Below are positions 17,150 through 59,812 of a stretch of DNA of 64,000 nucleotides, one piece after another. The DNA comes from Berberis thunbergii (lineage: Eukaryota > Streptophyta > Magnoliopsida > Ranunculales > Berberidaceae), in assembly GCA_003290165.1 (NCBI GenBank), contig QNQO01000448.1:434001-498000 (forward strand). The letters are read 5' to 3'. Under the pieces are notes generated by a model. The model was given only the letters and a program-made list of their open reading frames with translations, was not told where the DNA came from and did not search any database. Numbering within the stretch: position 1 is the first letter of the stretch; each line of letters starts with the position of its first letter. The position numbers and the translations under genes are program-made.

Positions 17150-18450
17150 GTTGTAAAAAACATAGGAGATTTGTAGGAGATTTGTTTAAGTTTGTCATCA
17201 AAATAGTAGAGACCGTCCACCATTCTAGCACTGCCAATCATCATCCCCGTGCTCATATCCTGGAAATCACAGTGAGAATAAAAAAATGTAACACGACAAT
17301 TAGAATCTTTAGAGAGTTGACTCACAGATAAGAGATCACAAGCAAGATTAGGGACATGAAGGACAGATTTTAGGGTGATGTTTTAAAAAATTTTGATAGA
17401 ACCTTTTCCTGCAATAGATGAAAAGTTTCCATCTGCAATTCTGACTTTTTTTACCGTCGGTACAAGGCGAAGCACCTGAATCAATGATCCAAGGTGTAGG
17501 ACTAGAATGACCAATAAAAGCACAAGAGTTGCCACCTGTTTGAGCTTGAGAAACACTAGGAATACCCGACTCTATATTGGATTTCAGCAATTTTAGTAGA
17601 CAATCCAGCTATTCTTTACTAAAGGGACCACTATAAGCATCATTTGCACGAGCAGATCGACCTCCATGCTTGCTTCTCTTCCAGTTGTTGCACACGTCAC
17701 ACCAAATCCGAGGCATGTCCTCGGCTCTATTCTTGTTATTGGAAGTTTTGCTCGCATTTGCATCAGCAACGACTAGGGCAGAATTTTCAATCGGCGTCCC
17801 ATTCCCTTTTTACCTAGCATAACATTATGGCAGCTTTCCTCCCTTCGAACTTCAGAGAATACTTCTCCAAGTGAAGGAAGCGGACCACGATTGATGATCC
17901 TCCCCCTTACTTCATCAAATTCTACATTCAGGCCAGCAAGAAATTTGTAGATGCGATCGTTTTCCACTGTCTTCTTGTGGTGATTGCAATCAGCTGGAGA
18001 TTTCCATTCATAATTATTGAAAATATCCAAATCCTGCCACAACCTTGTCAAAATATTGAAGTATTTGGTGACATTGTCTTCCCCTTGTCGAATTTCTCCA
18101 GGTTGTAGTTGCAGCTCATACACTTGAGATTGATTGCTAAGATCAGAATACATCTAGTGAATATTATCCCAGAGTTCCTTGGCAGTTGGATAACACATAT
18201 AGTTAGAGGCGATGTCTTCATCCATGGAATTGACAAGCTAGGCTATAACCATGGAATTTTGTGCATCCCAAGTGGCATAAGTCGTATCCTTCAAATCAGG
18301 TACCTTTGTATCACCAATCAGGTACCCAATCTTTCCTCTCCCTCGAATATACATACGCACTGATTGTGATCAGCGTAGGAAATTGTCTCCATTAAGGCGT
18401 ATAGTGGTAATTTGAACAGAGTGTGAGCCAAAAGACCTAGATTCAGACAT
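17150..18450 (-). pseudogene. Copia gag-protease-pre-integrase remnant
   Basis: Translation starts at ATG 18450 (MSESRSFG). The copia-like N-terminal domain follows (SVRMYIRGRGKIGYLIGDTK), then the gag core at 18153-17780 with LWDNIH, GEDNVTKYFN, LAGLNVEFDEVRGRI and EVFSEVRREES. The aspartic protease signature WIIDSGAS is at about 17497-17470. The pre-integrase part (MIGSARMVDGLYYFDDKLKQ) is at 17250-17180. In-frame stops (for example before MYSDL) and frameshifts disable it. Confidence 0.85.
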
Positions 18451-18524
18451 TGTGAGAGGCTAAGAGTCAAGAATAGTCCAAATAACCTTTTCCAAATGCA
18501 GACAAGAATTAGGAGATAAGTTCC

Positions 18525-18536
18525 AGCTCGATACCA
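18525..18536 (-). promoter_or_regulatory. Primer-binding site of the copia 5' half
   Basis: TGGTATCGAGCT directly follows the 5' LTR in element orientation. It matches the TGGTATCAGAGC site complementary to initiator tRNA-Met, with one base lost. Confidence 0.75.
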
Positions 18537-18794
18537 TGAAGATTTATGAGGAAGAATGATTCTTGTGTATATTTTCACCTAGTATCTTCAGGTTTAAATA
18601 CAAGAATATAGACTCAATAATAATAATTGCTTTCTAACCACTAACTATAGTAATTACTCTCTACCAACTAATAACCAACTCCCAACTACTTTCTAACAAC
18701 TAATATCCAACACCCAACTAATTACATTAATCACACAAAGACAAAATTCTAACACAACTCCTGGAGATCAGCAATAATATTCTTTTTTCCATCA
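18537..18794 (-). repeat. 5' LTR of the split copia element
   Basis: The 258-bp LTR reads TGATGGAAAAAAGAATATT at its start and ends ATAAATCTTCA on the minus strand. It aligns over its full length with the 3' LTR at 62135-62393, with scattered substitutions and small indels. Confidence 0.9.
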
Positions 18795-19500
18795 GGAAGA
18801 TGTTGGGTCTTCCCGTGTTTGGTGATTGACATCCTTGAATTTGAGAAATATGAGACTTTGGAGCCGACTACAAGGAAGCCTTGGAAGCTAACTCCACATA
18901 CTATCTTATGGAGTTTAAAAACAATGGAATCTTCATGGATGGGAAAATCTTTACAAGCGCTATAGCAGTATGGGTCTCCTGGTGTTGGGACAAGCCACTC
19001 TGCTTCTGAGTAGGACGGGTTTGAACATTTTATTTTCTCAATTGGACGAACATTCTAAAACACCTAGAAATCTAGATTTAGCCACTTTTAAATTTCACCA
19101 TCAATAAAACTTATCTGTCTTGCTCCAGAAAAATAATAATAATGTCTGTCAAATCCCTAATAATGTTTTCTAAAAAAAAATATGACTGTAGGATCTTAAA
19201 ATTGCCTCTAGTTTTTAATACAGTCAAAACGACGTAAGAATTGATAAAAATAAATGGTTTAAAAAGGATTTAACACGTTGGTTGGAGAGCACTCTACCTA
19301 CCTAATCACCTATTGCATTATATTCTTGTAATTCAAATCATAGAATGGTGATGCTTCATAAGCTGTATTGAAAATCAATAATTTACCTAAAAAAGAAGAG
19401 AAATGAAAAAAAAAAAAAAAAAAGGTGTTACTCTAAAAATATGGGTCTTCTTACTAGTTACTACTAACATATATCTAAGCCACAAGTAAACTACACAGAC

Positions 19501-19568
19501 CTTGGTAAACCTTCTGGTGTAGTTTCAGCCACTAGTTGTTCTAATTGCTCCCGTAAAGTAGCAACATA
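19501..19568 (-). other. Exon-like fragment of an unidentified gene
   Basis: A 68-bp open segment on the minus strand reads YVATLREQLEQLVAETTPEG and ends LPR. It is bordered by a good acceptor (CTATCTTGCAG) and a GT donor (AAG/GTCTGT). The peptide is leucine-rich and coil-like and does not identify a family. It may be a stranded exon of a decayed or captured gene, or chance. Confidence 0.35.
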
Positions 19569-20754
19569 CTGCAAGATAGAGTGACAGCCAAAAAATAAAA
19601 TAACATAAGAAGATCAAAGGCATAAGTTGCAACAACTATATAAGAACCCTCACAACACTTAAAACTGACTATGAACCAACAAACCATATAAGATGCAACC
19701 TGAGTCGTCACACAATAACTAAGCCCTCCTATGACATGTCCAACCAACAATACTTGGACACCCAATGGCACTGGCAAGTTTCCTGATACTCTCTTCAAAT
19801 GTGTCAAAGTGAGCATTGGTAAGGCTGATCAAATGAAATTTTGGCACGATCTGTTTTGTGGCAAGGGCAGCTTAAAAAAATCACTTCCTAAACTTTGACA
19901 AAAACACATCAACATGGATTCTATTGATAACTACTATGTACTTCTTAGTTACTACGTATGAATGTTATTTCCCCCTTAGAGAGATATTAACAAAGGGGAA
20001 AGAAAACCAAAGATACACAATTACCCATTTACACAAAGACAAGATTTCCCCATGAGAACATAAAATCATCCAGATGATAGTTCCCCCATCTCATCCCATG
20101 CCCACCCCTAATATTAAGAGGGTCTCCAACATAACAAAAAAAAATTCTTCATTTGGAAAATTTAAATCTTTCTCAAAATAAATTACCTACCCACACACAC
20201 AGAAACAAGTAAATAAATTATTATCAAATGTGGCATGAAACCCAAGTCTTAGACAAATGCTGATACTCTTTTCTGATCAATCATATTATTACGCAGCCTT
20301 CTGCGGTATCTGTTTCGGTCTTATTGAATCACATGATTGGAATCTCCATGAAACAAATATAGAAGTTAAAAATTAAATCAAGGGCCCCAATGTGTTTCCT
20401 CTTTGCCCATGTTTGCCTTTCTCCTTTCTTTAAAACCTCTTTCTGCCCATAACATCATCTTCTCCGTGACACTTCTTCCATCACCTCCTTCATTGCCACC
20501 ACCATTGCCCTCCGTCCTTCCTCTTTTCCCCTTCTCTATTAGTAATTATTCTCCCTCTCTTTTTATTCCCTCCTCTCTAATATTTCCTACAGGATTAGAA
20601 AATATTACAAAGTATATTACCATACTCATACCCGACAAAGATTAACCTACATACCATCACATCTGTGCATTGAAAATGCACATGCACTTAAAAGACACAT
20701 ACAAAAATGTTTGTTCATCAAAACTTAACAAAAAAACCAGATATGTGTGTATGT

Positions 20755-20778
20755 GGAGAGAGAGAGAGAGAGAGAGAG
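20755..20778. repeat. (GA)n microsatellite
   Basis: Twelve uninterrupted GA units. Confidence 0.95.
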
Positions 20779-20861
20779 GGGTCTTTGGGTTTTGTTCCAA
20801 ATGGGTTCACTAAGGAAACATTCAACAATTGAACATGATTTGAAGAGAAAATATTAAATAC

Positions 20862-21405
20862 TGTTAGGATCTGACTTATTCTGGTTATGTCCTGCAGAAA
20901 TGAAGCACATCAACTCAAGTCTTATTGGCAGAAATCAGAAAGAAGATGGATTGAATCCTGCGGTCTCAGCAAACAAAATGCCAAACAGAGATTTGCAAGA
21001 AGGAATGCTGATCATGCAACTTTCAATACAAAGAATAGAAGAACAATTGAATTGAATTGAATTGAATGATATGTATTGATAAGAAGGCTATTCGAGATGC
21101 CCTAGAGAGTAATTGCTCAATGTACTATTGTTCTTACAAAATTGAAATCCCCCTATTTCCTCCAGTTCTAGTCCTATTTATAGCACCTTGTCTACTTGTA
21201 TCATTCCCACTTAAATCCCAATTGTAGCCACTTGTATTCTGTATTCAATTACACAGCTTGCTTCTGTTACAACTTGCATTCTGTTACAACACCTTGCATA
21301 TTTTCGTAGCAACAATTAGCACAAACTGTCCTCCTCTTCTGCACTTACTGATTCCTTATTGCATTCTTCCTCCTTGTGTAAGTAAATCTGATAGGGGACC
21401 TATCA
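20862..21405 (-). repeat. 3' LTR of gypsy element C
   Basis: The 544-bp LTR is nearly identical to the partner at 25317-25875. It contains an ATTGAATTGAATTGAATTGA run and a TATTTATAGCACC segment that could serve as TATA region on either reading. Confidence 0.92.
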
Positions 21406-21418
21406 TTACCCCTGCCCC
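21406..21418 (-). promoter_or_regulatory. Polypurine tract of element C
   Basis: On the minus strand GGGGCAGGGGTAA stands directly before the 3' LTR, the expected site for priming plus-strand DNA. Confidence 0.75.
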
Positions 21419-22467
21419 AAAGACGCACCTTGTTGGTTTAACAAATCAAATGCCTCCCACATAGCTTCATAAGCAGGTAAATCCTTCCATTTGATTAGAA
21501 CTTCCAACGTACCTGGCTCGCCCTTGACAGTCTGCCTGACATCCAACACTGTCTCTGGTTGCACCACTAATTCAACATCATCAGTCAAGTGAGAAGAGAT
21601 AGGAGACATAAGAGAATAAGGCACTTTAGCCCGGCATAACAGAGAAACATGAAATACTGAATGAATTTGGGAGGAAGGAGGTAAGGCCAGCCTATAAGCC
21701 ACAGAGCCTACTTTGGCTAAAATCTCATAAGGGCCATAAAACCTGGGCGACAACTTCTGATTATTACGCCGAACCAGTGATTGTTGGCGGTATGGTCTGA
21801 GCTTCACAAAGACCTTGTCGCCTACTTCAAAGGCTTCATCTCTCCTAGATTTATCAGCAAACCACTTCATCCTCTGTTGTGCTTTTTGTAAATTCTCCCT
21901 TAACTTCTCCAAAATACTGTCTCTGGCTGATAATAACTGCTCTATGGAAGAGACGGTTGTACTGCCTGTGGTGTAGTGCAATAGTGGAGGAGGATCTCGT
22001 CCATAAAGTATCTTGAATGGGGCATAACCAGTGGCCGAATGGGAGGACGTATTGTACCAATACTCGGCCCAAGAAAGCCATTTGGACCACTGTTTGGGTT
22101 TTTCGGAAGCAAAACACCTCAGATATGTTTCAAGACAACGGTTGAGCACCTAGGTTTGGCCATCCGTTTGTGGATGATATGTCGTACTGTGTGTCGATTG
22201 TGTGCCTTGCAACCTGAACAACTCACAACAAAAGTGACTGATAAAAATTTTATCCCTGTCCGAAATAATGGAGATAGGTGTTCCATGAAGTTTGACAACT
22301 TCCCTAGAGAACATTATTGCAACTCCTTTGGCAGTAAATGGGTATTTCAACCCTATAAAATGACCATATTTACTGAGACGATCCACAACTACCATGATAG
22401 TGTCCACCATACCCGAATTAGGCAACCCTTCTATGAAGTCCATTGTCACTTCATCCCAAACTTCCTA

Positions 22468-22626
22468 ACTTCCTAACATCAGCTTTCATTCTTATCCAAT
22501 AGAGTAGGTAGTGGGATAGGTTGAAGAAGACCAGCTGGACTGACGACCATTGTTTTATTTCGTTGACACACCTCACATTCGCTTACCAACTTCCTAACAT
22601 CAGCTTTCATTCTTATCCAGTAGAGT
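22468..22626. repeat. Short direct duplication within integrase of element C
   Basis: A 37-bp string beginning ACTTCCTAACATCAGC occurs at about 22468-22505 and again at about 22588-22626 with one difference. The first copy is extra and disturbs the integrase frame just before DFIEGLPNS. Confidence 0.8.
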
Positions 22627-24255
22627 TCTTTGGCTATCTGCTGCCCACAGATGAAGTATGGGATTCTTGAAAGAGAATGGGAATAAGAGAAGAAGTAGAT
22701 GGAATAACTAACCGATCCTTGTAATGTAGTAGGCCATTTACAATCTTAAAACAAGGGCGGCCTGAGCTTTCCAACAGAGTCTGTTTGATTTGCTCGAGAG
22801 TGGAGTCATTCCCAATTTCAGACTTTAATACCGTCCAATCTCTCCAGGTGGGCAAACTGAGATAAGAACAGGATGGTGGAAGAGAAATCATTGACAATGC
22901 ATCAGCCGCTTTATTGGAAGCCCCTAGTTTTTACTGAATTTCAAACTCATATTCCAAAAGTTTACTTACCCATCGTTGGTACTCAGACCCAATGACTCTC
23001 TGTTCCATCAAGAATTTCAAACATTTTTTATCTGCCCTAATGGTGAACTTGCGCCCTAACAAGTAAGCTCGCCACCTTGTCACTGTCAACACTATAGCCA
23101 TGAGTTCCTTCTCGTAAATAGGCTTAAGTCGGGCTCTTTGCCCCAAAACCTGCCTGAAAAATGCTATTGGTCGTTGCAATTGCATCAATACAGCGCCCAC
23201 TGCAAACTGACGCATCTGTTTCGACAACGAACTCTTTGGACATATCCGGCATTGCCAATACTGGTGCCTCAGTCATAATGTGCTTCAGCTGTTGGAAAGC
23301 CATTTTGGCATGTTGATGCCATGCAAAGCTGTCTTTTTTAATTGTGACGTCAAGGGCCAGGCTACCTGACTATACTCTTTCATAAACTTTCGATAGTACC
23401 CCGTGAGTCCCAAAAACCCCCTTAACTCAGTAATATTTTTGGGTTGTGGCCAATCCAACATTGCCTGAATCTTTGATTTATCCACAAAAACCCCATCCGC
23501 CGAGATCACATGTCCTAAATAACACAGTCTGGAGCATCCGAACTCACGCTTCTTCTTGTTCGCATATAATTGGTGTTTTTATAGTACCCCCAATACCACC
23601 TCAAGATGCTCTATGTGTGCCTCAACCCCCTTACTATACACCAGAATATCATCAAAAAAAACAAGCACAAACTCACGTAGATAGGGCCGAAAAATTGATT
23701 TCATCATTGCCTGGAAAGTCGTCGGTGCATTCGTGAGACCAAACGACATCACCAAGAATTCATAGTGCCCCTCATGAGTTCTGAAAGCCGTTTTGGGTGC
23801 ATCCCCTTCTCTCAAATGAATCTGGTGATAGCCTGACTTGAGATGTAATTTTGAGAAGATAATTGACCAGTGAAGCTCGTCTAACAACTCATCTATAATT
23901 GGAATAGGGAATCGATCAGGTACCATTTGTTTGTTTAATGCTCGGTAGTCCACGCAGAAATGCAAACCCCCATCCTTCTTCTTAACTAGCAAAACTGGGC
24001 TTGAGAAAGGACTCACACTTGGTCTTATAGTCCCTGTTTCCAACATCTCATCGATCAACTTTTTTATCTAATTTTTTTGAATTTGAGGGTATCGATAAGG
24101 TCTGACGTTCACAGGATTTGAGCTTTTATGTAAGATAATCGCATGTTCGAATCCCCTGCGTAGAGGTAGTCCTGGTGGCAATTGGAACACCTTCTGATAT
24201 CTGCCAAACAGCTCTGATATGACTACTGGAACAGCTGAAGCTTCTCCCCATGGAG

Positions 24256-25281
24256 CTAACGTATTCTTTTGTTCGACCATAATCCCTTCTTGCGTTTGGC
24301 TTGGAACTCTACATCGGAGAGCTTCATGATCTCACCTTCTGGAACTAATCCTTTCTCATGGTTTCTAGAAACAACTGGTTTCTGGTAGCGATGAGATGGA
24401 TCTTTCTCTGTTTGTCTGTCGTGTTCTCTAGAAAACCCGAGATTATGATGCCCTAATGGGCCCGATCCCATATTTCTTTGATCTCCCATGGGCTTTTGTT
24501 GGTAACTTTGAAAGCCCATTTTATAAAAGCCCATTAGGGTTTGCTTTTCTTCTACCCTAAGAGTCAAGTCCATTGCCCGACCCAGTTGACCCGGCTCCAG
24601 CATCCTCACTCCTGCCCGGATTGTTGGCTTCAAGCCATTGATGAACTTACTAAAATATATGTCTTCAGTAAGTGTTTTCAATGGTGTCGCCAGTGTGACA
24701 AATTGTTTTCGATACTCTGCTACAGATTCTTCTTGTCTAAGAGCAAGAAATTTCTCACACAAAGAACCCTCTTGAGCAGTTCGAAATTGTTTCAATAACA
24801 AACCCTTAAGTTCTTCCCACAATAGGATCGGACGACGTTGTTTTCCCCACTGATACCAAAGAAGTGCATCTGCCTCAAATGAAATGACTACGACTTCGAT
24901 CTTCTCTTCATTTGTATACCGCTGTAAGGCAAAGAATCTTTCAGCTTTGAGTATCCACCCATCAGGGTTTTATCCTTCAAACACTGGCATATCTAATCTC
25001 CAGGGTTTCCTATCATATTGATACCCTTGAGATGATGAACCTTCTCCTACCCCACCAATTGGACTTTGTGCATCAAGATTGGTTGGAGGTATTTGATCAT
25101 TCTCTGTAGTAGAAGCAGTCTTTAAAGCTTCTTGTTTTATTTTCATCATCTGATCCATTATCTGTATCATTTCTTGAAAACCCCCTTTCAATGATTCTAT
25201 TTGTTCTTGAACATTTACTACAATTTCTTCCATAACTTCAATTTTGGCAGTAGCACTTGATCCAACCCATTTTCCAGCCAT
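24256..25281 (-). pseudogene. Gag of element C
   Basis: Translation from ATG 25281 (MAGKWVGSSATAK) gives a coil-like N terminus, a Ser/Gln-rich linker and a gypsy-type gag core: NPDGWILKAERFF, LWYQWGKQRRPILWEELK, LLLKQFRTAQEGSL, EYRKQFVTLATPL and FINGLKPTIR. One in-frame TAA at 24970-24972 replaces a residue just before NPDGW. The frame ends shortly after QAKRKKGLW, where a CCHC knuckle is normally found, and the sequence passes almost directly into the RT N terminus. Knuckle and protease are therefore missing. Confidence 0.85.
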
Positions 25282-25300
25282 TACTCCTAAGAATCGGACT

Positions 25301-25314
25301 GCTCTGATACCAAA
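25301..25314 (-). promoter_or_regulatory. Primer-binding site of element C
   Basis: TTGGTATCAGAGCAG on the minus strand lies two to three bases inside the 5' LTR and matches the 3' end complement of initiator tRNA-Met. Confidence 0.85.
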
Positions 25315-25316
25315 TT

Positions 25317-25875
25317 TGTTAGGATCTGACTTATTCTGGTTATGTCCTGCAAAAATGAAGCACATCAACTCAAGTCTTATTGGCAGAAATCAGAAAGAAG
25401 ATGTATTGAATCTTGCAGTCTCAGCAAACAAAATGCTTAACAGAGATTTGCAAGAAGGAATGTTGATCATGCAACTTTCAATACAAAGAATAGAAGAACA
25501 ATTGAATTGAATTGAATGATATGTATTGATAAGAAGGCTATTCGAGATGCCCTAGAGAGCAATTGCTCAATGTACTATTGTTCTTACAAAAATGAAATCC
25601 CCCTATTTCCTCCAGTTCTAGTCCTATTTATAGCACTTTGTCTACTTGTATCATTCTGACTTAAATCCCAATTGTAGCCACTTGTATTCTGTATTCAGTT
25701 ACACAGCTTGCTTCTGTTACAACTTGCATTCTGTTACAACACCTTGCATATTTTCGTAGCAACAATTAGCACAAACTGTCAACAATTAGCACAAACTGTC
25801 CTCCTCTTCAGCACTTATTGATTCCTTATTGCATTCTTCCTCCTTGTGTAAGTAAATCTGATAGAGGGCCTATCA
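25317..25875 (-). repeat. 5' LTR of gypsy element C
   Basis: The 559-bp LTR differs from its partner by scattered, mostly transition-type changes and by a 20-bp tandem duplication of CAACAATTAGCACAAACTGT at about 25760-25799. Confidence 0.92.
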
Positions 25876-25880
25876 AATAC

Positions 25881-27313
25881 CAAACAAAACATCACTAATT
25901 TCTTTCACTTGGACCCTCAGTTAATCTTTTGAATAGTTAATCTTTCCTTGGGTTAGTCACATTCTATCATTCACACTCCATCCACACTTGGACCCTCAAC
26001 CTCTTTCATGTTGGTTAGTCTCATACTCATCCTAACGTTCGCACATCTATCTAAGCTATAGTTTCAATGTTTGCTATTATAAGACCCAAAAAAAACACAA
26101 AGAAACCGAATAACATCCTCAAATGAACTCATCTTAAATGTCAGCTTTCATTATAATAATCAATTCTAATTCATTTTCCAACTTTTATGCCAAAAATTTA
26201 ATAAATAAATAACTGAGATTATTTTGTTCTGTTCAAAATTTTCTCAAATTTATGATTTTTATCCTAATCTCCCCCGGTTGAGCCCTAGTAAAAGGTTAGT
26301 GATTGCAATGATGGTTTTGATAGAGGTTAGCAATAGAGATAGTGTAAATACCTTAGGCCCTCTTTGTTTTAGGGTTTTTGTTCCTACTTCAGAGTGATTC
26401 CAGAGAGACTGTGCACGTATGTTATCGAAAATTAGATGCTCGTATGATCGAGATGAATAATGAAACCGCATAGGCTACCAGTGTTGTTCTCCCTCCCTCC
26501 TATTTGTTTCTCTTTTATGTTTTTTCTCTTCCTCTTTATTATCTGAATATTTGTCTGCCTAAACCTACACAAGTCATTTTCCTCCTTCCATTTCCTCTTC
26601 CCCACATATCAATCCACATAAACAAGCAAGACATGGCACTTCCTATTTACTTTTTTCAAACACACATGATCTATTTGAAGTGTTGTAAGTCTGCGAATTC
26701 AAAGTAATCAATAAAATACATTGCACCCAGAAAGAACACACCTCAGAGAAGTAGATTACTTTGCTCATCTTTCTTCCAACTGGGTTCACCATGGATATAG
26801 TAAAATCATGCCTACCAACATAACATAACATTGCAATAATGGCCTCATTTCTTTCACTCCGGACCGATCATTGATTTCATCCCTTAACATGAGATGATTT
26901 CCTTTACGTGACATGTTTATTCAAAATCTTTTCCTCCAATCATTATCATCATTTTGTGGTTCTTGTTCTTGTCTTGTTCAATTGTTTTCTCAAGATTTGT
27001 GATTCTTCTTCTTGGTAATTTTCTTCAATTGAACGAACCCTAGAAAGTTACTAATTGCAATGATGAGATTTAATGCATACATAAATAGTGAGAAAGTGCA
27101 ATTAATTAAAGAGGAATACGAGCAGATTATCTATTGTTTCGCACTTTTGAAGATGGAGAGAGCGTGGGTATCTTTATTCGCTTCGCACTTGTGAGCAGAA
27201 AGAGTGGGTACCGGTAGGATGGCAATCGAGAATTGAAACGGTGGTTGATGATGACCTTCACGCCCACCATATATTGAGAGAGTAATGGCCAATGTCACCT
27301 TGTTTAAGGATGT
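25881..27313. other. Intergenic stretch without recognised gene
   Basis: The sequence is T/C-rich. Two segments resemble each other (around 26228-26320 and 26985-27075, both with TTCTCAA, ATTTNTGATT and TTGCAATGAT), which suggests an old duplication. No coding domain or RNA gene is recognised. Confidence 0.4.
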
Positions 27314-27643
27314 TGATGCGTCCAAATCCAGTTTCTTAGAGATCCCACTTACAAAACAGCGTTAGATTGTCAATGACCACCTTTTTGGTGGCCAAAGGCA
27401 CTCTAATGCTTAAGTCAGTTAATCTGTGGAGAAGACTAAATTTAGACAGAGTATAGTTCGGTTAAATTTACATACTCGCGGTCAAATATTTCCTTTATCT
27501 TATATAATGTCCGGCATTAATTATTCGCATGACTTAAGCATGTAGGGAAAAATGAGGGGAAACGTTATTTGCAACGGTCTCCTCCTTCATTGAGGTACTT
27601 TGACGCGTGTACGATCATGATTCGAGTCTTATTTGATGTATCA
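27314..27643 (-). repeat. 3' LTR of Tat element B
   Basis: The 330-bp LTR runs TGATGCGTCCAAATCC to TTTGATGTATCA on the plus strand. Relative to the other LTR it lacks about 190 bp after CCTTCATTGAGGTA. Confidence 0.88.
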
Positions 27644-27876
27644 TCAGCTACTCCACTAGTTAGTGGGCATGTTTGTGTGGCCACTAACTCTACGTCGGTT
27701 GACTTTTCGACTTCATCATTATTTTTTATGCAGAGCGTTTAATGTCGTTAACAACTGTCGATATGGTTGTTATTTTGATGTCCCACTCGCGTGTTCGTTT
27801 CAGCGCAATTTTGGGATTTCGTGCAGTCATCATACCTCGCACGTCTTCCCATTAGTAATTTTTTCGTTACCCAACC

Positions 27877-27887
27877 CTATAAAAGGG
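27877..27887 (+). promoter_or_regulatory. TATA box of the antisense gene of element B
   Basis: CTATAAAAGGG starts 108 nt before the ATG at 27985. The homologous gene in element A has the same box 109 nt before its ATG. The flanking sequence is also conserved between the two elements. Confidence 0.65.
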
Positions 27888-27984
27888 TGACGGAGATTTG
27901 TGTTTCTTTTTTTACATTGTCTCCATTATTAGAGTTTGTTTCTTTTCACTTTCTTCATTATCTATCTTACACAATTCATTTCTC

Positions 27985-48771: not shown

Positions 48772-49682
48772 ACCAATTCATACAAATTGCTGCTTAGTAT
48801 TGAAGCTACCAATTCAGTTGCTCAGTTTATCTTAGTATTGTTGAAGTAGCTTCATGTATCCAGCTTTCCTGATTTGCAACTATGGCAGTGCTTGGCTTAG
48901 CTTATCTTGTATCAATAGTTGTTTGTTAAGTGCTTAATGTGTGACTTGTTAGAATTGCATTTTTCTTCATATCTGAACCAGATGAATGAGATTTTAGTGT
49001 GCAGTATATTTTCTTTATCAAAGGAAAAACAGGTTATAGCATTTTATCAAACGCACAATTTCTCAACTTGAGCACACATCAAAACCTTTCAATGATGAGG
49101 GGCATGGCTTTATCCTTTTGGGAGAATACAAATTATTTACGTATTCATGCGCTGATCACAAAAATGTTTTTGTTACGGAATAGATTTTTAGCTTGAAGAC
49201 CGGTATTGAACTTTTTTTCTCAATGAAATATTTAAACAGACATTGGGTTCGAAATTATACTGTTAGGATGTTTTGCAGGAAGCAAAATTAAAATCATATT
49301 CTAGTTAATATATAAAGTAGAGTTGTGCGATCTCAATAAATAAAAAAAATTCCCATGATTAGTTTTAGACAACCAAACACTCATAGTAGAAATTGGAATC
49401 CAATTCTCATGGGCAACCAATCATCAAAATTTGTCAAGTCCATGGCATGGGATGCCATGACATGAGATGCCATGGAATGAGATTCCAATTCTCACCTTAG
49501 GATTCCATGCAACCAAACACACCCTCAGAGTTTTATTTCACTTTGACGGTTTGTAAAGTGGATGGTCTTCTGCAGAGACAACTCACTGTCCATTCACTTG
49601 GTGTGTCATTTTATGAAAATCCCTTCTTCAAACTTGTAATCGAGGAGAATTGTCTTACATATACTTTTGTTTCTGCTTTTAG

Positions 49683-50007
49683 TTTTTATATATATGATAG
49701 GAACCAGATGGACGTATTTGAAGTGAACAAGACCAACTATGAGAATTGCATAGCAGATCATCCACTCCATAACTGGACTACTGAAGCTGGAAGGGATGTT
49801 GTTCCACTTAATGTTACTAGGCACTATTACTTCATCAGTGGCAAAGGGTTCTGCTATGGAGGTATGAAGCTTGCTGTAATTGTTAAAAACCCACCACCTC
49901 CTCCAATGGCCTCTCCTTCAAGCCACAAGAACGAATCTCCTGCCTTGGGCAATCACATGGTTGTGAGAATCTCCTGCCTTGTTTCATCCCATTATGTTTT
50001 CTACTAA
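49683..50007 (+). pseudogene. Captured early nodulin-like (phytocyanin) exon
   Basis: After an acceptor (TTTCTGCTTTTAG) an open stretch encodes the second half of a plastocyanin-like domain: NQMDVFEVNKTNYENCIADH, RDVVPLNVTRHYYFISGKGF, then CYGGMKLAVIV and a Pro-rich PPPPPMASPS linker. One of the paired cysteines is kept (ENC and FCYGG). The usual copper-ligand positions around GHC read GFC, as in copper-free early nodulin-like proteins or by mutation. The N-terminal exon with signal peptide is not found upstream. The original protein would be extracellular and GPI-anchored. Confidence 0.8.
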
Positions 50008-50110
50008 TCCAAGCTTAAGTTTATATTGCAACTCTCCCTCTAGGACAGATAGATACTAGCAATTCAGTGAACAGTGAACAGTGATCAGTGTTTTGAGCTT
50101 TTGAGTTTGT

Positions 50111-50231
50111 AAATTTGATTAAGTGTTTTGAGTTTGAGTTGGAGTTTGTAAATTCAGTGAACAATGATCAGTATTTTGAGCTTTTGAGTTTGTAAATTTG
50201 ATTAAGTGATCAGGTTATAAATTTGGAATGG
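50111..50231 (+). repeat. 121-bp inverted repeat, left arm
   Basis: This arm (AAATTTGATTAAGTGTTTTG to AATTTGGAATGG) is repeated inverted at 51866-51986. Just upstream at about 50070-50110 the same motifs (AGTGATCAGTGTTTTGAGCT, TTTGTAAATTTGATTAAGTG) are tandemly duplicated. Further right, 50280-50370 repeats GGAATGCAGAGTTCAATTT. Confidence 0.85.
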
Positions 50232-50630
50232 AGTTGCAGGTTGTAAATTTGATTGTGATCAGGTTGTAAATTCAATTTAGGAACGCAGAGTGTAATTGTG
50301 AGTTCTAGGAATGCAGAGTTCAATTTTAAATTTAGGAATGCAGAGTTCAATTTAGGAATGTAGGTTGTAAATTTGATTGTAGTTGAGCTTCTATCTTGGA
50401 ATGGAGTTGCAGGCCTCCTGATATTGGACTGGAGGGCAGCGAGCTGAACCATGCCTGGGAGGTTATTGTTGATGCTGAACTGCTCCTTGGATCTCTGAGT
50501 TGGTAGTTAGTTGAGTTATTCTTGGTTTTCCTGGAATCATCTCTCGTACTTTTTTTTTGGATTTCTATTTTATATTTTTATCAGTGTCTTATGGGTATTG
50601 GATTTGAAATTGTCACCTTATGTCAAAATG

Positions 50631-50819
50631 GAGAGATTCTAAATGTCAAGGGAATGAGCGAGGGAAATGAGGTGGCGAGGTGAAAGCCGTTCATTTCCCT
50701 CGAGATGCGCGTGAGAAAAGTCAACGCACGCATCTCGAGGGAAATGAACGGCTTTCACCTCGCCACCTCATTTCCCTCGCTCGTTTCCTCGCTCATTCCC
50801 TCGACATTTAGAATTTCTC
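50631..50819. mobile_element. Near-perfect hairpin MITE, 189 bp
   Basis: Two arms of about 80 bp (from GAGAGATTCTAAATGTCAAG and the inverted GAGAAATTCTAAATGTCGAG) are complementary except for a few bases and close over a short loop (GAAAAGTCAACG). GTCAAAATG flanks both sides (50622-50630 and 50820-50828), a 9-bp duplication typical of Mutator-type MITEs. It inserted within the larger Pack-MULE. Confidence 0.9.
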
Positions 50820-51376
50820 GTCAAAATGTAATGTTGTTTAGACAGTTTTTGGTCATGGGAAGTATATATTGAATTGGGGTCAGCTCATTTTTGGCTGAGT
50901 TGTTGCTTTATGAGGCTTTCTCAACGTCCTTTTTTCGTTCTGCCAGTCAATAGCTGATATTTTTAGTGGTGTACCTCATTTTCTTCTGACATGGCTTAAA
51001 AGAATTGGAGTGTCTTATGGAAACTGTTTCTGATATTCACCTTGTACGCATAATTATCAACAGGTTGCCATTCTCTTGGCTGACATTGAGGAATGAGTTT
51101 GGAGGATTTTCGGTTTGAGTCTTTCTTAGTATAGTTCTCCGTTTAACTTATGTTTTTCATGGAGGACTGCCTTCCTCTGCTTATTCCTTTTGTTGATTCT
51201 GGTTGTTTTTAAAAATTTTACATCATGGCATATGATGCAGATCATGCAACCTCTAAGTCAAAATATGACTGTCGGTTCCTCTCACTTGGGTAGTTGAAAA
51301 TAGCAGTTTTGTGTTGTCAATAAAAGTCAGTGGCTTTCATCATCCAAGTTAATTGGTAATTGTAAAAGTTATTAAA

Positions 51377-51868
51377 TCATAAGAATAAATCTAAAACATA
51401 GCTTGCATGGTCATCTGGGGCAAGTTCAACAAGTTGAATCCCAGCTTGTTCCCCCATTTTGAGATTTTTGTGAATTCTACAAGAGGCCGATAAAACCTTC
51501 CACATAACTATGTATGGTTCCACTGGCATGGTTCTTATCATCTCATCTGCCTTATCAAACAAACCTGCATGGCCAAAGAGGTCAATCATGCACCCATAAT
51601 GTGCAATGTATGGTTCGATGCCATAAACCTCAGTCATCTTTTCAAAACAACCTAAACCTTCTTTAACCAACCCTCCATGATTGCAAGCATTCAACACACA
51701 TGCAAAAGTTATTGCATCAGGCCGAATCCCTACATAGTCCATCGTGGAGAAGAGCTGGATTGCTTTCAAGCTCTGACCATTTAAAGCTAAGCCAGAGATA
51801 ATCCCATTCCAAATGTCCACACTTTTCATTCCCACACTTGGCATACATGCTAATAAGTGACGAACCAT
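51377..51868 (-). pseudogene. Captured PPR protein fragment (PLS/E type)
   Basis: The minus strand encodes the end of a plant pentatricopeptide-repeat protein: SVDIWNGIISGLALNGQSLK, GIRPDAITFACVLNACNHGG, YGIEPYIAHYGCMIDLFGHA and an E-motif-like VMWKVLSASCRIHKNLKMGE. A further remnant, SLISMYAKCGN, precedes it in another frame and is joined across a deletion. Such proteins bind organelle RNA, and E-class members take part in editing. Only about three repeats remain. It is oriented opposite to the transporter and phytocyanin pieces and ends against the right arm of the 121-bp inverted repeat. Confidence 0.88.
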
Positions 51869-51986
51869 TCCAAATTTAGAACCTGATCACTTAATCAGAT
51901 TTACAAACTCAAAAGCTCAAAACACTTATCACTGTTCACTGAATTTACAAACTCCAACTCAAACTCAAAACACTTAATCAAATTTA
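51866..51986 (-). repeat. 121-bp inverted repeat, right arm
   Basis: Inverted partner of 50111-50231 with about eight differences. The arms enclose 1.6 kb that contain the hairpin MITE and the PPR fragment. Confidence 0.85.
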
Positions 51987-52606
51987 AAACTCACTCACTG
52001 AAATAAATCTTCCACACTGAAATGGGTTTTTTCTTCGGCTCATTCACTCACTCACTCCACCAGGCTTCAAAGAAGAAGGAGGAGGCGCAATGAATTCTCC
52101 TTGTCAGGAATATTAGCATTGTGCAAAGATAAAAGAGATGGTTTGCTAGGAGAACAACCAATCTTTGCAACAGACAAGTAGAAAGTAGAAAGTGAAACTG
52201 CAATTCGACTAACAAACTAAGCACAACTAGATTTTTAGCTTCTATTACTAGAAAAATGACTAAGAAACCATAGTAGGAAGCTTACAATCAACAGGCTGAT
52301 CCTTAAAAGAAAGCATAGACCTCAATTGGGACCATATATCTTTGAAGGATCCCCTCCCTACTGCAACCATTCACAGCAAAGATGACAATGTGGAAAAAAA
52401 TGCAGCACAGTAGATGTCCTAGTTTTGTACAAGAAGAATTCACTGCAAAAACAGAATTCTGGCACATATGCGAATCATATGAAACTCCAATAAAGAACCA
52501 ATTCGGCAGTAGCTGAAACAAGAAATCGCCCCAAGGGTAAAAAAAATCCCAAATAAAACATCTATATATCATAACAAACACGTTTGAAATACCTCTTACA
52601 GAGAAT
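51987..52606. other. Stretch downstream of the HBD gene
   Basis: On the minus strand this is the 3' side of the gene at 52996-52607 and probably includes its 3' UTR. A cysteine/phenylalanine-rich shadow frame (52620-52303) shows no domain. Confidence 0.4.
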
Positions 52607-52996
52607 TCAAAATGCCACAAGTTTGAACAAAAAAACTACCATTATCATAAGAAACACCACTAGCAGTGCATTAATCAAATCCCTTGTCAAAGCCCATTTA
52701 TCATTGTTCGCTTCAGCTTCACCCGCGCGAGCGTGATACTGATTAGCTTCTAGGAGATTTCTTGCCTCGCAGTTCTTATTTTTGACCTCTATAGCAGATG
52801 ATGAGTTTGCCTCATCGTTATATTCCACCACTTCTGAGCGAACCCACTCTTCATAACTAGCATGAGCCTCGGCAGCTGAGGCAAAACCTTTGTACAAATT
52901 ACCACTATATCCTATTACTTGGATTGCACAATCTTGCCAAGTTTCGTAAATTCCAGGGACACGACCGCGATATACCACATATGCCTTGTATGTCAT
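52607..52996 (-). CDS. RNase H1 N-terminal domain protein with C-terminal anchor
   Basis: An intact 129-residue frame begins at ATG 52996. Residues about 3-50 form the RNase H1 N-terminal hybrid-binding (viroplasmin-type) domain: KAYVVYRGRVPGIYETWQDC, VIGYSGNLYKGFAS and EAHASYEEW. A polar Asn/Glu-rich linker follows. Residues about 107-129 are one hydrophobic segment at the very C terminus (LINALLVVFLMIMVVFLFKL), like a tail anchor. The catalytic RNase H domain is absent. The frame lies just inside the right repeat of the Pack-MULE. That repeat supplies a GC-rich first exon, a donor (GG/TATGT near 53370) and an acceptor-like AAATAAG before the ATG. Binding of RNA:DNA hybrid or dsRNA at a membrane is inferred from family knowledge only. 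Confidence 0.7.
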   Translation of the reverse strand: MTYKAYVVYRGRVPGIYETWQDCAIQVIGYSGNLYKGFASAAEAHASYEEWVRSEVVEYNDEANSSSAIEVKNKNCEARNLLEANQYHARAGEAEANNDKWALTRDLINALLVVFLMIMVVFLFKLVAF

Positions 52997-53029
52997 TGTT
53001 GGGTTAAGATCCTTATTTCAACATACAAA

Positions 53030-53746
53030 AATTTGTAAAAAATTTCCAGGATTCTCATGAATTTCAGTAGTATAATTGAACAAAAATTTGTAAAAATTTT
53101 GCAAGATTATCATGAATTTCAGGGTAAAAAAATTTTAGGGTATACATTTCCTGATTTCAGTAGTATGAATTTTAGGATTATCTGATTTCAGGGTATAAAT
53201 TTTTTTGATAAATTTAAGTTTAATTTTCAGTATAATTTCAGTTTCAGAAGATAAATTAACCAAAAAGAATTTGAAATTTTCAGTATAATTTCAGTTTCAG
53301 AAGATAAATTGAAGTATAATTTCAGTTTCAGAAGATAAATTAACCAAAAAGAGTTTGAAATTACATACCAGAAGAAGGAGGAACAGGAGCAGTGCGAGCG
53401 GCGCAGAGGAGGAAGAGCAGTGCGAGGAGGAGCAGGTGCGAGGAGGAGAAGCAGTCGATTCAATGAGGAGGAGCAGTCGAGGAGTCGAGGAGGAGCAGTC
53501 GATGAAGAGCAGATCGATGCGCGAATTCGCCGTGGATTGTTGAGGAGCAGTCGATGAGGAGGAGAGGATTTCTCGGTTGGGAGGGTTTTACTAAGGGTTT
53601 CTCGCCATTGTTCTCCCTCAATTCGAATCGAAGCAGACTGAGTATGGGGGTTTTGCATCCACGTGCGAGACACCCTCCCAAAGGCACGTGCCTGGGAGGG
53701 TCCGTGCCATAAGGCAGGCTGTGGACGTGGGCTGCGTAGAATTTTG
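53030..53746 (-). repeat. Right terminal inverted repeat of the Pack-MULE
   Basis: It is the inverted counterpart of 45159-45785 and about 90 bp longer, because a TCAGTTTCAGAAGATAAATT unit is repeated three times (53228-53340). It has the same small ATGGCGAGAAACCCTTAG frame and splice-donor region. The repeat ends directly upstream of the HBD gene, so it likely acts as its promoter and leader. Confidence 0.85.
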
Positions 53747-53910
53747 CATGTCCTCGCTCTCCACCTCTACAAGAATCATAAATAATTGTGGTAAAGTATG
53801 ATGGGTGTGAAAGTGGTGGTTATGGTAATGGTGGTCACAGTGGTAGTGGTAGTTATGGCAGTGTGCTAACAATGGTGTGGTTGTGGATTTTTTTTAATTG
53901 GGTAGTTGAC

Positions 53911-54211
53911 ATTTATTTATTTATTTATGTCTGAAGGCTATATGATTGACCCTATAGGGCTAACTAAACCAAGCTTGAAGGCTACAATATTGTTGCCACT
54001 TAATATCCTCATCATTTCCATTTCACATGGAGACTTGCTTTCATTTCGCTCGGGTCCAGTCCATCTAAGCAGATATTAAATATCCGAAGGTTTATCGATG
54101 GCGAAGCACATGTACTCCTAATATCGGGAGAAAACTCACAAAATCATAACTTGTGAGTCTTGAACTCTCGACTTCTCACAAGGATAGTGGATGTCCCACC
54201 AACTGAGCCAC
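53911..54211 (-). mobile_element. tRNA-derived SINE, copy 2
   Basis: On the minus strand the head GTGGCTCAGTTGGTGGGACA is a good pol III box A, and AGAGTTCAAGACTC about 35 nt later resembles box B. The body matches copy 1 at 44406-44703. The 3' end is an ATAAATAAATAAATAAAT tail. An imperfect duplication flanks it: AATTGGGTAG (53896-53905) and AATTGGTAG (54212-54220). The two copies bracket the Pack-MULE but lie in the same orientation. Confidence 0.85.
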
Positions 54212-54772
54212 AATTGGTAGACGATTGCTGAGTGGAAGTAGTGGTTGTAATGATATAGTGGTTGACTGTGGGTGGTTATCAAATTGTTGCATAAACAAGA
54301 TATGTAAGTTGTATGAAAAATATTGTAAATATTATTTGATAAGCTACGACTAGGGGTAATGCCATAAATTTGAAATGATCTGGGCTTAAAAGTAAAATTT
54401 ATAATTGTAGTAGAACACTTTGTGGATGGAATTCAAGAGATGAAGATTTTTCATATATATGAAGATTAATATACAAATTTGCTTACCCATTTAATAATTT
54501 AGAGTTGACAAAAAATCATTAGCTGTATAAGACCTAATTTAATCAAGTAAATGTACAAAGTGGTGTTTATGTATATATAAAAGCTAAATCAAATTAAATG
54601 AAGTAATAATGTAATTTTGTTAAACTAAATAAAAAAAAGATAAAAGATGGGCCTAAGTAGTTTAAAGAAAACTTAAAAAAAAAAAAGACAGAAAAACCAT
54701 GTAGTGTTATGGAATTGAAACTTACTAAAAAAAAACACAATAAAATAAATGAAATTTTTTTTTCCAATAATA

Positions 54773-54776
<4 letters not shown>

Positions 54777-54817
<41 letters not shown>
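54777..54817. repeat. (TA)n microsatellite
   Basis: About twenty TA units in a row. Confidence 0.95.
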
Positions 54818-56639
54818 CACTAAAAACAACTGCAACATGGGGCATCTCTATTTACATTAGAAGAAAAAAAAACCAGATAGATGCTTATATGCTTCACTTA
54901 AGTCTGATTTCCTAACCACATTATCTCCAAAGTCTAGGAAATATATCAAATGTTTTGGATCTTATCAGTTACATTGTTTTGCTCAGTTATTTTATATTCA
55001 CTTCATCACTCATGATCCACACTTTGTCCAAGCTTTATCTACACACCAAACAAGGACTGTTTTTTACTACCATAAATGCTACCATATCTTGGCCAAAGTT
55101 GTGTTGATTCATAATCATAAAGTCATTATAATTTATGCACTTTCTAGCATAATCATATATAATAAAAGAAAATGTAACTCTATGAAATCAAACCGTAGTC
55201 TAAAATGAGAACTAACTGAGACTGCACTGCAAAAAGTAAAGCAAAGCAATGGTATTTATTGTATCATATTATTCATTAGTTTTTAATAGATGGCTTCGCC
55301 TCCAGCAACATCATGCTCCACAACTCCATCATTATCTCTTCAGTGACTGAAGTTGAATCCACCTCATTTGCTAATTCATCTTCCTCGATTCTCCGTGTGA
55401 CACTGTGTACTTTAAAAAAAAAAATTATTTCTTGCTAAAAAAGATATTGCTAAGCAGTTGTAGTTTTAACACTTGTATCTTTTTTTTCTCTCGCAATTTT
55501 AACACAATAATCTACTTTGTAACATATGTAATAAAAGTTACAATCATTTTTTTTTATTGTTATTATAATGGCATGTATCTGGAAATTTTTTACCTACATA
55601 TCTATTGATCATTAAACCTATGTAATAAAAGTTTTCTCCAATAAGAGTCGTAGATCCCCATGCTCTATTAGTGATATGTGTACTTGAGGACACACAACCT
55701 TTTGATCCTAGCTAACAATTAATTTTTCCTATTTTCCTTTCGACTGATTTCTCCTTGTATTAGCTTTATCATTCATCTTGTCTATTTAAATCCAATGTAG
55801 AAATAATGAAGTCTGGAATCAAATTATTATTGTTTACTTAATAATATATTTGAATCACAAAGAAATGAGAATGCAGAAGATGAATAATTCTTCCTAATCC
55901 AGCACAAGCGAAAACAAATGTGAAGTCCAACCATGTACAACTGTCACTATGAATTATCGAGGATGGATATAATAATGTTCTTGATTGGGTTTTAAACGAT
56001 AATAATTGTGGAGTCAAATCAAATGTTTCCAGTTTGAGTTTAAAAAAAGTGTGGATGTATAAATAAACTCAACAAATCTCGAAGGATTTAGGTTTTTAAA
56101 TATCCTTATGGCTGATGAGGCAAGTTGAGTTTGTATCAAAGAGAATAAGGAAAATGAATTCTTAAATAATAAATAAATAATTAAAATGCTATTGGCTCTA
56201 TCTTTTATGTGGGTTCTAAGGACACATGTCGGAGGATAGAACTCTGACAGATCTAAGATTGCACACGTCAGACAAAGCAAATTAAAAAGTTCGCTCCACA
56301 CCTCATCTTCTTCACCTGTCAGCAGTGCAACCGAAGTTGAATAATCATTTCTACCTTTTCTACATCTCTCAGTAATTTTTTGAGTGATACGATGTCGATG
56401 TTCACTTAAGATTGCTTCTAGTGAGAAGCACACTTGAACTTTTGGCACAAATTTTAGGAAAGGATAATATTCATTTAAATGGAAAAATTGCACCTCAGGC
56501 AGCAACTAGACATTGCAAAAACAGCCCATTATTACCAAAAGTTCTAACACGCAGCCGTCGTCAGGGTGAACTCTTTAAGTTGAAAGTCCAATCCAAGTAG
56601 GAAACCTGAACTCGCACGAATAAAGCCACCACTTCGTAC
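54818..56639. other. Intergenic stretch left of the ADA1 gene
   Basis: AT-rich DNA without recognised gene. The minus-strand open stretch at 56505-56014 (163 residues) has no domain I can name and is interrupted by low-complexity sequence. It may be a shadow. TAATAAAAGTTA motifs recur near 55525 and 55622. Confidence 0.4.
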
Positions 56640-57257
56640 TTATATTGACCCAAGAGGTCTCCAGGTCCCCCAAATAAGAACCTCAATTTCCCTCCCGTCG
56701 TTCGCACAGAAACTCAAGTCGAGAGCGAAAGCCCGAACGAAGACAAGCTCGCGTGATCGACGCACTTAGGTCAGCTTTTCTTCCTCTCTTTGTTTCTCTA
56801 CTTCATCTATCGTCTTTTCGAATTCCAGCTTTTTTTTTTCTAGGGTTTTATTGCTTTGTTCTCCTCGCTATAATGTTCAAGAATGTAGGTTGTCGAATTT
56901 TGGTTTCCGTTCTTCAGTTGCTTCAATTCGATTGCTTTCTTTCGCTTGTGTGTGTATTAATGAGTCACTGCTTCCAATTGTTCAACTTTGCAACTATTTG
57001 TTTCATCAGGTGAATAGTTACGCAATCGGATCAACCATTTGCAGGTTTTGAGCTCAATTTCTGTGTGGGTTTTGTTCTCTTGATTCGTTGTCCAAACCCT
57101 AGAGTTGAATTTGGGTGAATCGGTTGTGAATATTGCTGGAGGAGAGCGGAGTGAGGAAGTTAGGGCTTTGGGGGTTGGGTAGAAAGGGTGGGTTTGATTT
57201 TCTGGATCTATTGGGGGTTTTCTGTTTTGAGGATTAGGGGTGGATTCTGTCATTAAA
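56640..57257 (+). promoter_or_regulatory. Probable promoter, 5' UTR and leader intron of the ADA1 gene
   Basis: A GC-richer stretch (56660-56765) is followed by a donor-like TTAG/GTCAGC at about 56768 and by intron-like T-rich sequence with acceptors at about 56843, 57009 and 57044. Downstream of the last acceptor (TTTGCAG) no ATG occurs before 57258. A 5'-UTR intron is thus plausible. Confidence 0.5.
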
Positions 57258-58268
57258 ATGCGGAATTTTGCTAGAATTGACACAGGGGAGCTGAAGTCTC
57301 AGATAATGAGGAAATTTGGGCATCGGAAGGCGGAGAAGTACTTTTTTCAGTTGAACCGGTTGTTGAGTCTTAAGATTAAGAAGTCTGAGTTCAATAAGGT
57401 ATTTATTAGTACAATTGGGAAGGAGAATGTTCAACTTCATAATAAGTTCATTAATTCGATCATCAAGAATGCTTGCCTTGCGAAGGCTACCCCATCTAGA
57501 GGAAGCAAGGGGGAGGGTGGTAGAATTGCAAATGGGCATCTTCAGTCTCTCCGCAGGGGTAGGTCTCAGCATTTTCGTGAGCGCAAGTCCACGGACCGTC
57601 CTAGTCCACTTGGGCCAAATGGGAAGGTGCAAAGTATTGTTTGCGGTGAATCGGCCCCAAGAACGCAAAGTCTCACTGAGCTGGTTTCTCCTGGTAGCAG
57701 GCCCCATGTTGATGTTTTCTCTGTGGAAGAGGGAGAAGAAGTTGATCAAATGATGGGAAGCCCGAGTATTCAAAGTAGAAGTCCTGTCAGAGCTCCATTA
57801 GGCATCCCCATGGGCACGGGTGGGTCACGTAAGGCTCTTGGTACCAACTTTTTTACATCAGTTCCTCTGGAGAACTGTCGTAACAGTTACGAGCTTCCTG
57901 ATACAATGTCTTTGAAGAAGCGGTTGGAACAGAAGTTGGAGAAAGAGGGCCTTCGCATCACCACTGAGTGTGTTGATTTGTTGAATAATGGATTGGATGC
58001 ATTTTTGAAGAGATTGGTGAAGCCATGTGTTCAACTAGTTTGGGCTAGGTCTGTTCATGAACAGAAAAAGCAAGTTGAGAGTCAAGTAACTTCTGGTTTA
58101 AATGGGATTTGGCCTTACGGATATATGCAACAACAACCGGTTCATTCCAAATCTGTGTCACTGTTGGATTTTCGAACTGCAATGGAGTTGGATCCCAAAT
58201 GTCTTGGAGAAGATTGGCCTGTACAGCTGGAGAGGGTTTGTTTAGGCACAGCAAAGGGACAGCGATGA
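57258..58268 (+). CDS. SAGA complex subunit ADA1/Hfi1-type (SAGA-Tad1 family)
   Basis: A single open exon encodes 336 residues from ATG 57258 to TGA. An in-frame GTG lies 18 nt upstream, but ATG is the normal choice. The N terminus has the family signature: ARIDTGELKSQIMRKFGHRK, YFFQLNRLLSLKIKKSEFNK and NVQLHNKFINSIIKNACLAK. The middle carries the plant-conserved DRPSPLGPNGKVQS and VEEGEEVDQM. The C-terminal histone-fold-like part follows (ELPDTMSLKKRLEQKLEKEG, DLLNNGLDAFLKRLVKPC), ending with SLLDFRTAMELDPKCLGEDW. ADA1 bridges the histone acetyltransferase, SPT and TAF modules of the nuclear SAGA coactivator in RNA polymerase II transcription. Length is normal to slightly short. It is the only complete host gene seen here. 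Confidence 0.9.
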   Translation: MRNFARIDTGELKSQIMRKFGHRKAEKYFFQLNRLLSLKIKKSEFNKVFISTIGKENVQLHNKFINSIIKNACLAKATPSRGSKGEGGRIANGHLQSLRRGRSQHFRERKSTDRPSPLGPNGKVQSIVCGESAPRTQSLTELVSPGSRPHVDVFSVEEGEEVDQMMGSPSIQSRSPVRAPLGIPMGTGGSRKALGTNFFTSVPLENCRNSYELPDTMSLKKRLEQKLEKEGLRITTECVDLLNNGLDAFLKRLVKPCVQLVWARSVHEQKKQVESQVTSGLNGIWPYGYMQQQPVHSKSVSLLDFRTAMELDPKCLGEDWPVQLERVCLGTAKGQR

Positions 58269-59812
58269 ATTGCCAATAAAAAGAAAAAAAGAAAAAGAAA
58301 AAAAAGAAAAAAAAAGGGGGAGTGACCAAAAACCCTTTTATTAATTTTTCCATACTGAATGAGATAAAGAATTTGGTTTAATCACTCAGAGCTATGGTAT
58401 GCAATTCCAAGATTCACTCTGGTTGCGAAGTTGACTTTCATCTTTCATGCATTTGTATTGCGGAAGGGTTCAGGTCATGGTGTCTATATTTACTGTAAGC
58501 GCTACTGAGCACTGATTCTTGGTGATGGGAAATTTTGCATGGTATAGCGTAAACATCCCACCTCAATTTATTACCAAAAAAGCAGTTTTAGAACTTCAAG
58601 TGCATTTTTCAACTAATTTCCACTATATGTTCACTGTATTACCTTGGAACTGTACTTAGCTTTAGTTTGGATGCAACTAGTGCTGTTGAATCATTAGCAG
58701 TTTTAAGGATCATAACTTCAATAAAAGCTTCTTTCATGAATTTATGCTTTCCAGTCGCAATGCTCACATTGACTTATAGGCTTTTAATGTTTAATGTTGC
58801 ATCTGAATCACTTTCTTGTTTACAGTGCTTATAGTTTTTATGTCTTTCCTGTAAAAGGCCACTTACGATTTGTTATTTCATAGATAATTCTACCTCACTG
58901 GTGAGTGTAATGAAGTGTATGAGTGTCAAATATTCAAATTTGGGTGTGAACTTTAGTGAATGTCTAGAGGAAGGCATATGTACTGCCCGAATATGGGTAG
59001 AGTCCAGTGTGGGTGTGCTCCAATATGTGTAAAAGTTCAGTTTGGGTGTTGGTTCTGAGGTGTAATGAAGGGCTTCAATCATTATTTTCAAGCACTGAGG
59101 TGCGAGTCAAGCAGCTAGATTAGCAAGAGACTGAAGGCACACCAGGCTAAGGTGTAAGGCAATCATTTCAAATTAAACAAAGTGGTAAAGAAAAACACAA
59201 AGAAGATAAAAGGAACTTATGAAAAAGGTCTTAACTGTACAAACTCAATTCAACATTCTATAGGAAACCATTTTTTTATTTTCATCTTCTAAGTCGTGCA
59301 TGATCGGGAGCAAAAGTTTTCAAATTCCACTCTCCATTTAACTTGCTATCTCAGACAGACTTAATAATGTGATAAAGACTTTCCCTTTTGCATATATATG
59401 GGGTTTGAAGCAAAACGAGATCAGATTCCACATAGGGTTGGTGATGGGTGGTCTTACACATACATCTGCTCTGCCCCACCCCGCCCTGAATGGGGCAGAT
59501 TTGGGTTTGCTTTAATGGATTTTGAGGTGGGTTTGGAGATTCAAATTGTCTCTATCACGGATTTGGGTCGGATACGGATATGACCATATCTACCTCGCGA
59601 ATATTCGTTTATATATAAATTATTACTAAAATACCATTATAACATAGAAACCCTAAATCCAATTCCTAATTCCCTACTCTCCATTTTCCTTTCTTTTCTT
59701 CTTCACATCACACAACGAACCCTTTTGCCTCCGCCTCCACTAGGACCACCACTAGCCACCGCTGTCTCTACTCCTATGTGCATCTTCATCATCATTTTCA
59801 AGATATCTCAAA
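58269..59812. other. 3' flank of ADA1 and intergenic stretch
   Basis: A GA-rich run (58277-58320) follows the stop, and the 3' UTR likely lies in the next few hundred bases. At about 59390-59600 motifs such as CCCCACCCCGCCC and GGGGCAGATTTGGG resemble decayed hAT-type MITE sequence. No other gene is recognised. The right end (about 59812) is the abrupt start of copia sequence and the proposed right inversion breakpoint. Confidence 0.45.

Follow-up and report, generated by a model that had tools for sequence, protein, structure and literature searches.

A Copia-type retrotransposon in two complementary halves and the inversion that probably split it in Berberis thunbergii

The window, i.e., the whole stretch of DNA analyzed here, comprises 64,000 nucleotides of Berberis thunbergii (contig QNQO01000448.1, positions 434,001 to 498,000 of the forward strand) and contains one Copia-type long terminal repeat (LTR) retrotransposon in two complementary pieces that lie on opposite strands ~43,000 bases apart. 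The parts of the element are the following.

18537..18794, minus strand: 5′ LTR (blastn of the window on itself, flank reading, alignment)
17191..18536, minus strand: left half, with the primer-binding-site region, gag-like and protease-like parts and the start of the pre-integrase region, ending ...GLYYFDDK
59840..62134, plus strand: right half, with the FLSNKQA linker, gag_pre-integrs, integrase, SH3-like, RVT_2 and an RNase H-like remnant (profile search)
62135..62393, plus strand: 3′ LTR (blastn of the window on itself, flank reading, alignment)
18795..18799, minus strand: target-site duplication CTTCC, 5′ outer flank (flank reading)
62394..62398, plus strand: target-site duplication CTTCC, 3′ outer flank (flank reading)

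The two halves and their border

The complementary content of the two pieces bears out the initial annotation, which had placed the 5′ part of the element on the minus strand and the remainder, together with the 3′ LTR, on the plus strand. The LTRs, which have TG...CA ends, match as had been claimed, being 95.8% identical across 260 columns in the BLAST comparison (257 aligned bases, of which 9 differ, and 3 gap columns), and this pair is the only similarity between the halves among the matches listed when the window is compared with itself by blastn. The pentanucleotide CTTCC adjoins each outer LTR end in the orientation of the element, so that the identity of the outer flanks, likewise asserted before, holds; given the base composition, the chance of such a match is 0.0013. 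As expected of plant Copia elements, the paired LTRs are thus bordered by a 5-bp target-site duplication, and the domain order gag_pre-integrs, integrase, SH3-like, RVT_2 is found by profile search in the right half, where gag_pre-integrs matches from position 20 of its profile (20–67) and where the coding sequence has several frame breaks. In the left half, a piece of 126 amino acids gives no Pfam hit and is taken by us to be gag-like from its position and from its resemblance to such proteins.

The relatives used for comparison number 123, namely the best 120 of 263 protein-database hits (expectation value, E, ≤1e-10) and three from a search with the 88-residue frame of the left half, in which 3 of 4 candidates gave hits and none belonged to the subfamily of the element. 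The best database hits are 60–79% identical, and the named ones include Ilex, Cucumis, Vitis and Prunus. In tblastn with the 123 relatives (E ≤1e-3) every match but one falls on the two halves, the sole exception being that of P0111 at 52976–53161 (33.9% identity, E 1.5e-4, low-complexity filter off), and a search with seven peptides of the element found no second copy of the family in the window. A relic at 38979–39218 on the minus strand is 41% identical to the RNase H-like piece (E 4e-13) and appears to belong to a different, older and more distant Copia family.

The place at which the element is divided can be estimated from its linker, defined as the stretch from YYFDD to a conserved WH and readable by pattern in 34 of the 123 relatives, where it has 19 residues in two cases, 20 in 19, 21 in 12 and 24 in one. 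With ...YYFDDK at the end of the left half and FLSNKQAHIFG... at the start of the right one, the rejoined linker would have, by hand count, 21 residues, a length within the range of 19–21 seen in 33 of the 34 relatives; the halves would therefore abut at ~17191 and ~59840. Indeed, on the left side 38 of the 42 tblastn matches that end near the break stop at 17182–17200. The AAA at 59837–59839 is ambiguous and, because each break falls within an A-run, the borders can be placed only to within ~3 bases. The borders proposed previously, 17150 and 59813, are consequently off by ~41 and ~27 bp, respectively.

The repeat beside the junctions

The previously assumed borders went together with the claim that the halves share an overlap of ~33 bp belonging to the pre-integrase region. 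The similarity is real, yet it consists of an imperfect repeat of 39 bp located outside the element.

17151..17189, minus strand: left copy of the 39-bp imperfect repeat, non-element flank (31/39 match)
59797..59835, plus strand: right copy of the 39-bp imperfect repeat, non-element flank (31/39 match)

This repeat adjoins both breaks as an inverted repeat, 79% identical, and includes ACAAATCTCCT, which is present twice at the left junction (17164–17174 and 17175–17185) and once at the right (59812–59822), so that the target side, when rejoined on paper, has three copies. The similarity score of 38 between the two flanks was reached in none of 1000 shuffles, whereas the comparison of each element end with the opposite flank is at chance level (140 and 825 of 1000 shuffles, respectively, reach the score). 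An assignment of the shared stretch to element DNA was considered and rejected, the similarity being confined to the two non-element flanks; its assignment to the pre-integrase region in particular was likewise discarded, since in the relatives YYFDD passes straight into the linker. Counting the stretch (LKQIS...) as part of the element would lengthen the linker to ~32 residues, and none of five 4-residue words taken from it occurs in the proteins of the 123 relatives.

The inversion, its rivals and its age

By far the simplest account of this arrangement, and the best reading of the DNA, is that a single Copia insertion was split by one inversion of ~42.65 kb, as had been proposed at the outset; we consider it very probable because of the matching 5-bp flank, the abutment of the halves as judged from the relatives, their opposite orientation and the presence of an LTR at each outer end.

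17191..59839, no strand: segment read as inverted, about 42,649 bp (junctions, linker and flank comparison)

A single reversal accounts for both junctions, and no long homologous repeat is common to the two breakpoints, which share only the 39 bp at 79%. We infer the inversion itself, the order of the events and the repair pathway as follows. The retrotransposon would have inserted once, with duplication of CTTCC. Two double-strand breaks would later have occurred, one within the linker of the element between protease and integrase and the other ~41 kb upstream of the 5′ LTR, where the sequence is A-rich and locally repetitive. The ends would then have been rejoined in the wrong orientation by end joining at short A-runs, ~42.65 kb being flipped while coding sequence of the element was neither visibly lost nor gained at the break.

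The divergence of the LTRs (Kimura two-parameter distance, K2P, 0.036) provides a time frame. If substitution rates per site and year are taken as 1.3e-8 and 7e-9, the Copia insertion would be about 1.4–2.6 million years old and, since the inversion cuts an element already inserted, this age is an upper bound and the inversion must be younger.

Several observations weigh against this account. The repeat of the flanks is more diverged than the LTRs (8/39 vs 9/256; binomial P 5e-5), although P is 0.011 when the comparison is limited to the best 25 columns and 0.44 on the 16-bp core. Four of the 42 left-side tblastn matches pass the border, reaching 17110, 17146, 17176 and 17176, and on the right side 17 of the 111 matches that start before 59950 begin upstream of 59840, ten of them at 59822 and four at 59801–59816. 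These matches we read as probable chance extensions, the flank resembling the end of the other half no more than by chance at the DNA level; nevertheless, the border stays soft by some codons. Furthermore, a same-subfamily copy of the element was not found, the closest hits among the best 120 of 263 being only 60–79% identical.

The first of these points bears also on how the breaks were made. A repeat beside both breaks is what a staggered break of the target would leave, and staggered breaks had indeed been suggested from the supposed overlap; this suggestion lacks support because the repeat, over its full 39 bp, differs more than the LTRs, which must predate the inversion. An older imperfect tandem repeat at the target, broken between its copies, is just as likely a source, the choice lying between this and error-prone repair.

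Could the segment simply have been mis-oriented in the assembly, the real chromosome carrying one unbroken element? The window is rich in repeats, a circumstance that favors such an error. On the other hand, it contains no N, and all that the junctions have in common is the 39-bp, 79% identical inverted repeat, which is probably too short and too diverged to mislead long reads, so that we hold an artefact to be improbable and the small, well-preserved inversion to be probably real.

Even less probable is that one Copia family inserted twice and that each copy was truncated on its own. Truncated copies are frequent in plants, and there is no same-subfamily copy by which to judge the divergence expected between copies; however, the same 5-bp flank would have to arise by chance (the 0.0013 given above), the truncations would have to meet within ~2 codons in an element of ~4 kb (~0.003, as estimated from the linkers of the relatives), and the contents of the two pieces, on opposite strands, would also have to be complementary.

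Ectopic recombination between two oppositely oriented copies of the element is a known source of inversions that have a transposon copy at each breakpoint (PMC2775673), but is expected to produce two chimeras whose target-site duplications are exchanged, whereas here there are two halves and one duplication. A second copy was found neither among the listed blastn matches of the window with itself nor with the seven peptides searched against the window and, the anatomy contradicting this route unless the remainder of both copies was later deleted, we regard it as scarcely credible.

Another transposon, of hAT-like type, may have been cut at the far breakpoint as well.

15771..17190, plus strand: candidate left part of a hAT-like element, TGTGGAAC then TAGGGATAAAACGGGG (by eye, suggestive only)
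59433..59836, plus strand: candidate other part, ending, when re-inverted, ...AACCCTA then TGTGGAAT (suggestive only)

The candidate end at 15771, picked by eye, consists of TGTGGAAC followed by TAGGG, and upon re-inversion the end at 59433 would become its inverted partner with TGTGGAAT adjoining. With the left end so fixed, the sole partner in 64 kb (7/8 duplication, TAGGG, 11/19) adjoins the break. An unbiased scan for hAT-like end pairs gives 3 pairs, where the controls average 1.45 and reach at most 7, i.e., chance level, and the subterminal similarity of the candidate ends is also at chance (30/500 and 98/500 shuffles reach the value). It is therefore a tentative suggestion, which we think rather doubtful, that one inversion cut both the Copia and the hAT-like element, a single reversal restoring both scars (CTTCC/CTTCC and TGTGGAAC/TGTGGAAT), and that the two copies of an older tandem repeat were parted by the far break, marking a pre-existing fragile site.

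At 16072–16799 on the minus strand lies a reverse-transcriptase-like 3′ fragment that ends in GAT repeats, gives no Pfam hit and is flanked by the 18-bp direct repeat GAGGGGTGGGGGCGATAG (16054–16071 and 16800–16817, minus strand); the whole, 16054–16817, presumably represents a 5′-truncated insertion of a long interspersed nuclear element.

It is equally hard to credit that a hAT-type element made the inversion by alternative transposition, the Copia element being its target: hAT-like ends may be near the far break and such inversions are known in maize, but the junctions are then expected to have the ends of the transposon and an 8-bp duplication of the target (PMC8225341), while here the candidate termini lie ~1.4 and ~0.4 kb from them and no sequence of the element is duplicated at the break.

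Neighboring features and known inversions

Within the segment read as inverted lie also a gene and other repeats.

57258..58268, plus strand: ADA1-like (SAGA-Tad1) gene in one open frame (PF12767, E 9.3e-56; open reading frame 57231–58268)
20862..25875, minus strand: Gypsy-type element B, with AATAC on both sides (profile search, blastn of the window on itself)

The four best relatives of the ADA1-like protein, in Thalictrum, Macleaya, Coptis and Ranunculus, are 57–61% identical (best 120 of 686 hits), pointing to a plant host of Ranunculales-like affinity. Element B has a chromodomain and an LTR divergence of 0.032, which is near that of the Copia element and so does not order the two insertions in time. 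The pair of repeats 27314–27597 and 37324–37605 (K2P 0.19), candidate LTRs, corresponds to the element C of the initial annotation (27314–37605). Elements B and C and the ADA1-like gene would be inverted relative to the ancestor only if they were present before the inversion.

Around a plastocyanin-like frame (49501–50007) there are an inverted pair (45172–45587 and 53313–53721, 92%) and a direct pair (44424–44698 and 53913–54200, 79%); the region 44275–54200 is perhaps the Pack-MULE of the initial annotation, its ends being in a mixed arrangement. A tandem array with a period of ~85 bases occupies 8650–9554. Close to the Copia insertion site, a possible minus-strand exon at 19494–19613 (~19502–19570 = YVATLREQLEQLVAETTPEGLPR) follows a splice-acceptor-like site. 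That the inversion also split a host gene, with candidate exons at ~19502–19570 (minus strand), upstream of the insertion site, and at ~63884, beyond it, was considered and set aside, since neither candidate has a family match and their PDB matches are no better than chance.

A mobile element and its target-site scar together serve as an inbuilt marker of orientation, by which a flip can be read from one genome alone, the split element giving the position of the break within a few bases as well as an upper age. Many genomes probably hold such split elements unrecognized, annotation listing the halves as two fragments, and the pairing of complementary halves by their common target-site duplication would offer a way to detect small inversions without a second genome. 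The local importance of the present case would depend on whether the flip altered the surroundings of the ADA1-like gene. In the available part of a maize study (PMC2773423) there is no mention of split elements.

The element shares with plant Copia LTR retrotransposons the domain order, paired LTRs and 5-bp target-site duplication, and differs from them in being split and decayed, and the inversion is of an already known kind. The 1.17-Mb inversion of Arabidopsis, of which the transposon Vandal5 is the inferred cause (as described in PMC5664140), also concerns a plant and has a transposon at its breakpoints, whereas the retrotransposon described here looks like a passive victim. The maize p1/p2 inversions, produced by reversed-ends transposition of Ac/fAc (PMC8225341), are likewise tens of kilobases long (80.9–81.8 kb), and hAT-type sequence is perhaps near in our case too, but the present junctions have neither a transposon terminus nor an 8-bp duplication. 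Ectopic recombination and alternative transposition thus do not fit, the junctions being without long homology, transposon terminus or 8-bp element duplication. In Drosophila, inversions arise by two breaks and end joining, either cut-and-paste or staggered (PMC7584159, PMC2775673), and resemble the present one in having junctions without a long common repeat; here the organism is a plant, the segment measures 42.6 kb and the stretch that looks duplicated has diverged further than LTRs that must predate the event. With both breaks in A-runs, two breaks with end joining, as in PMC7584159, fit best.

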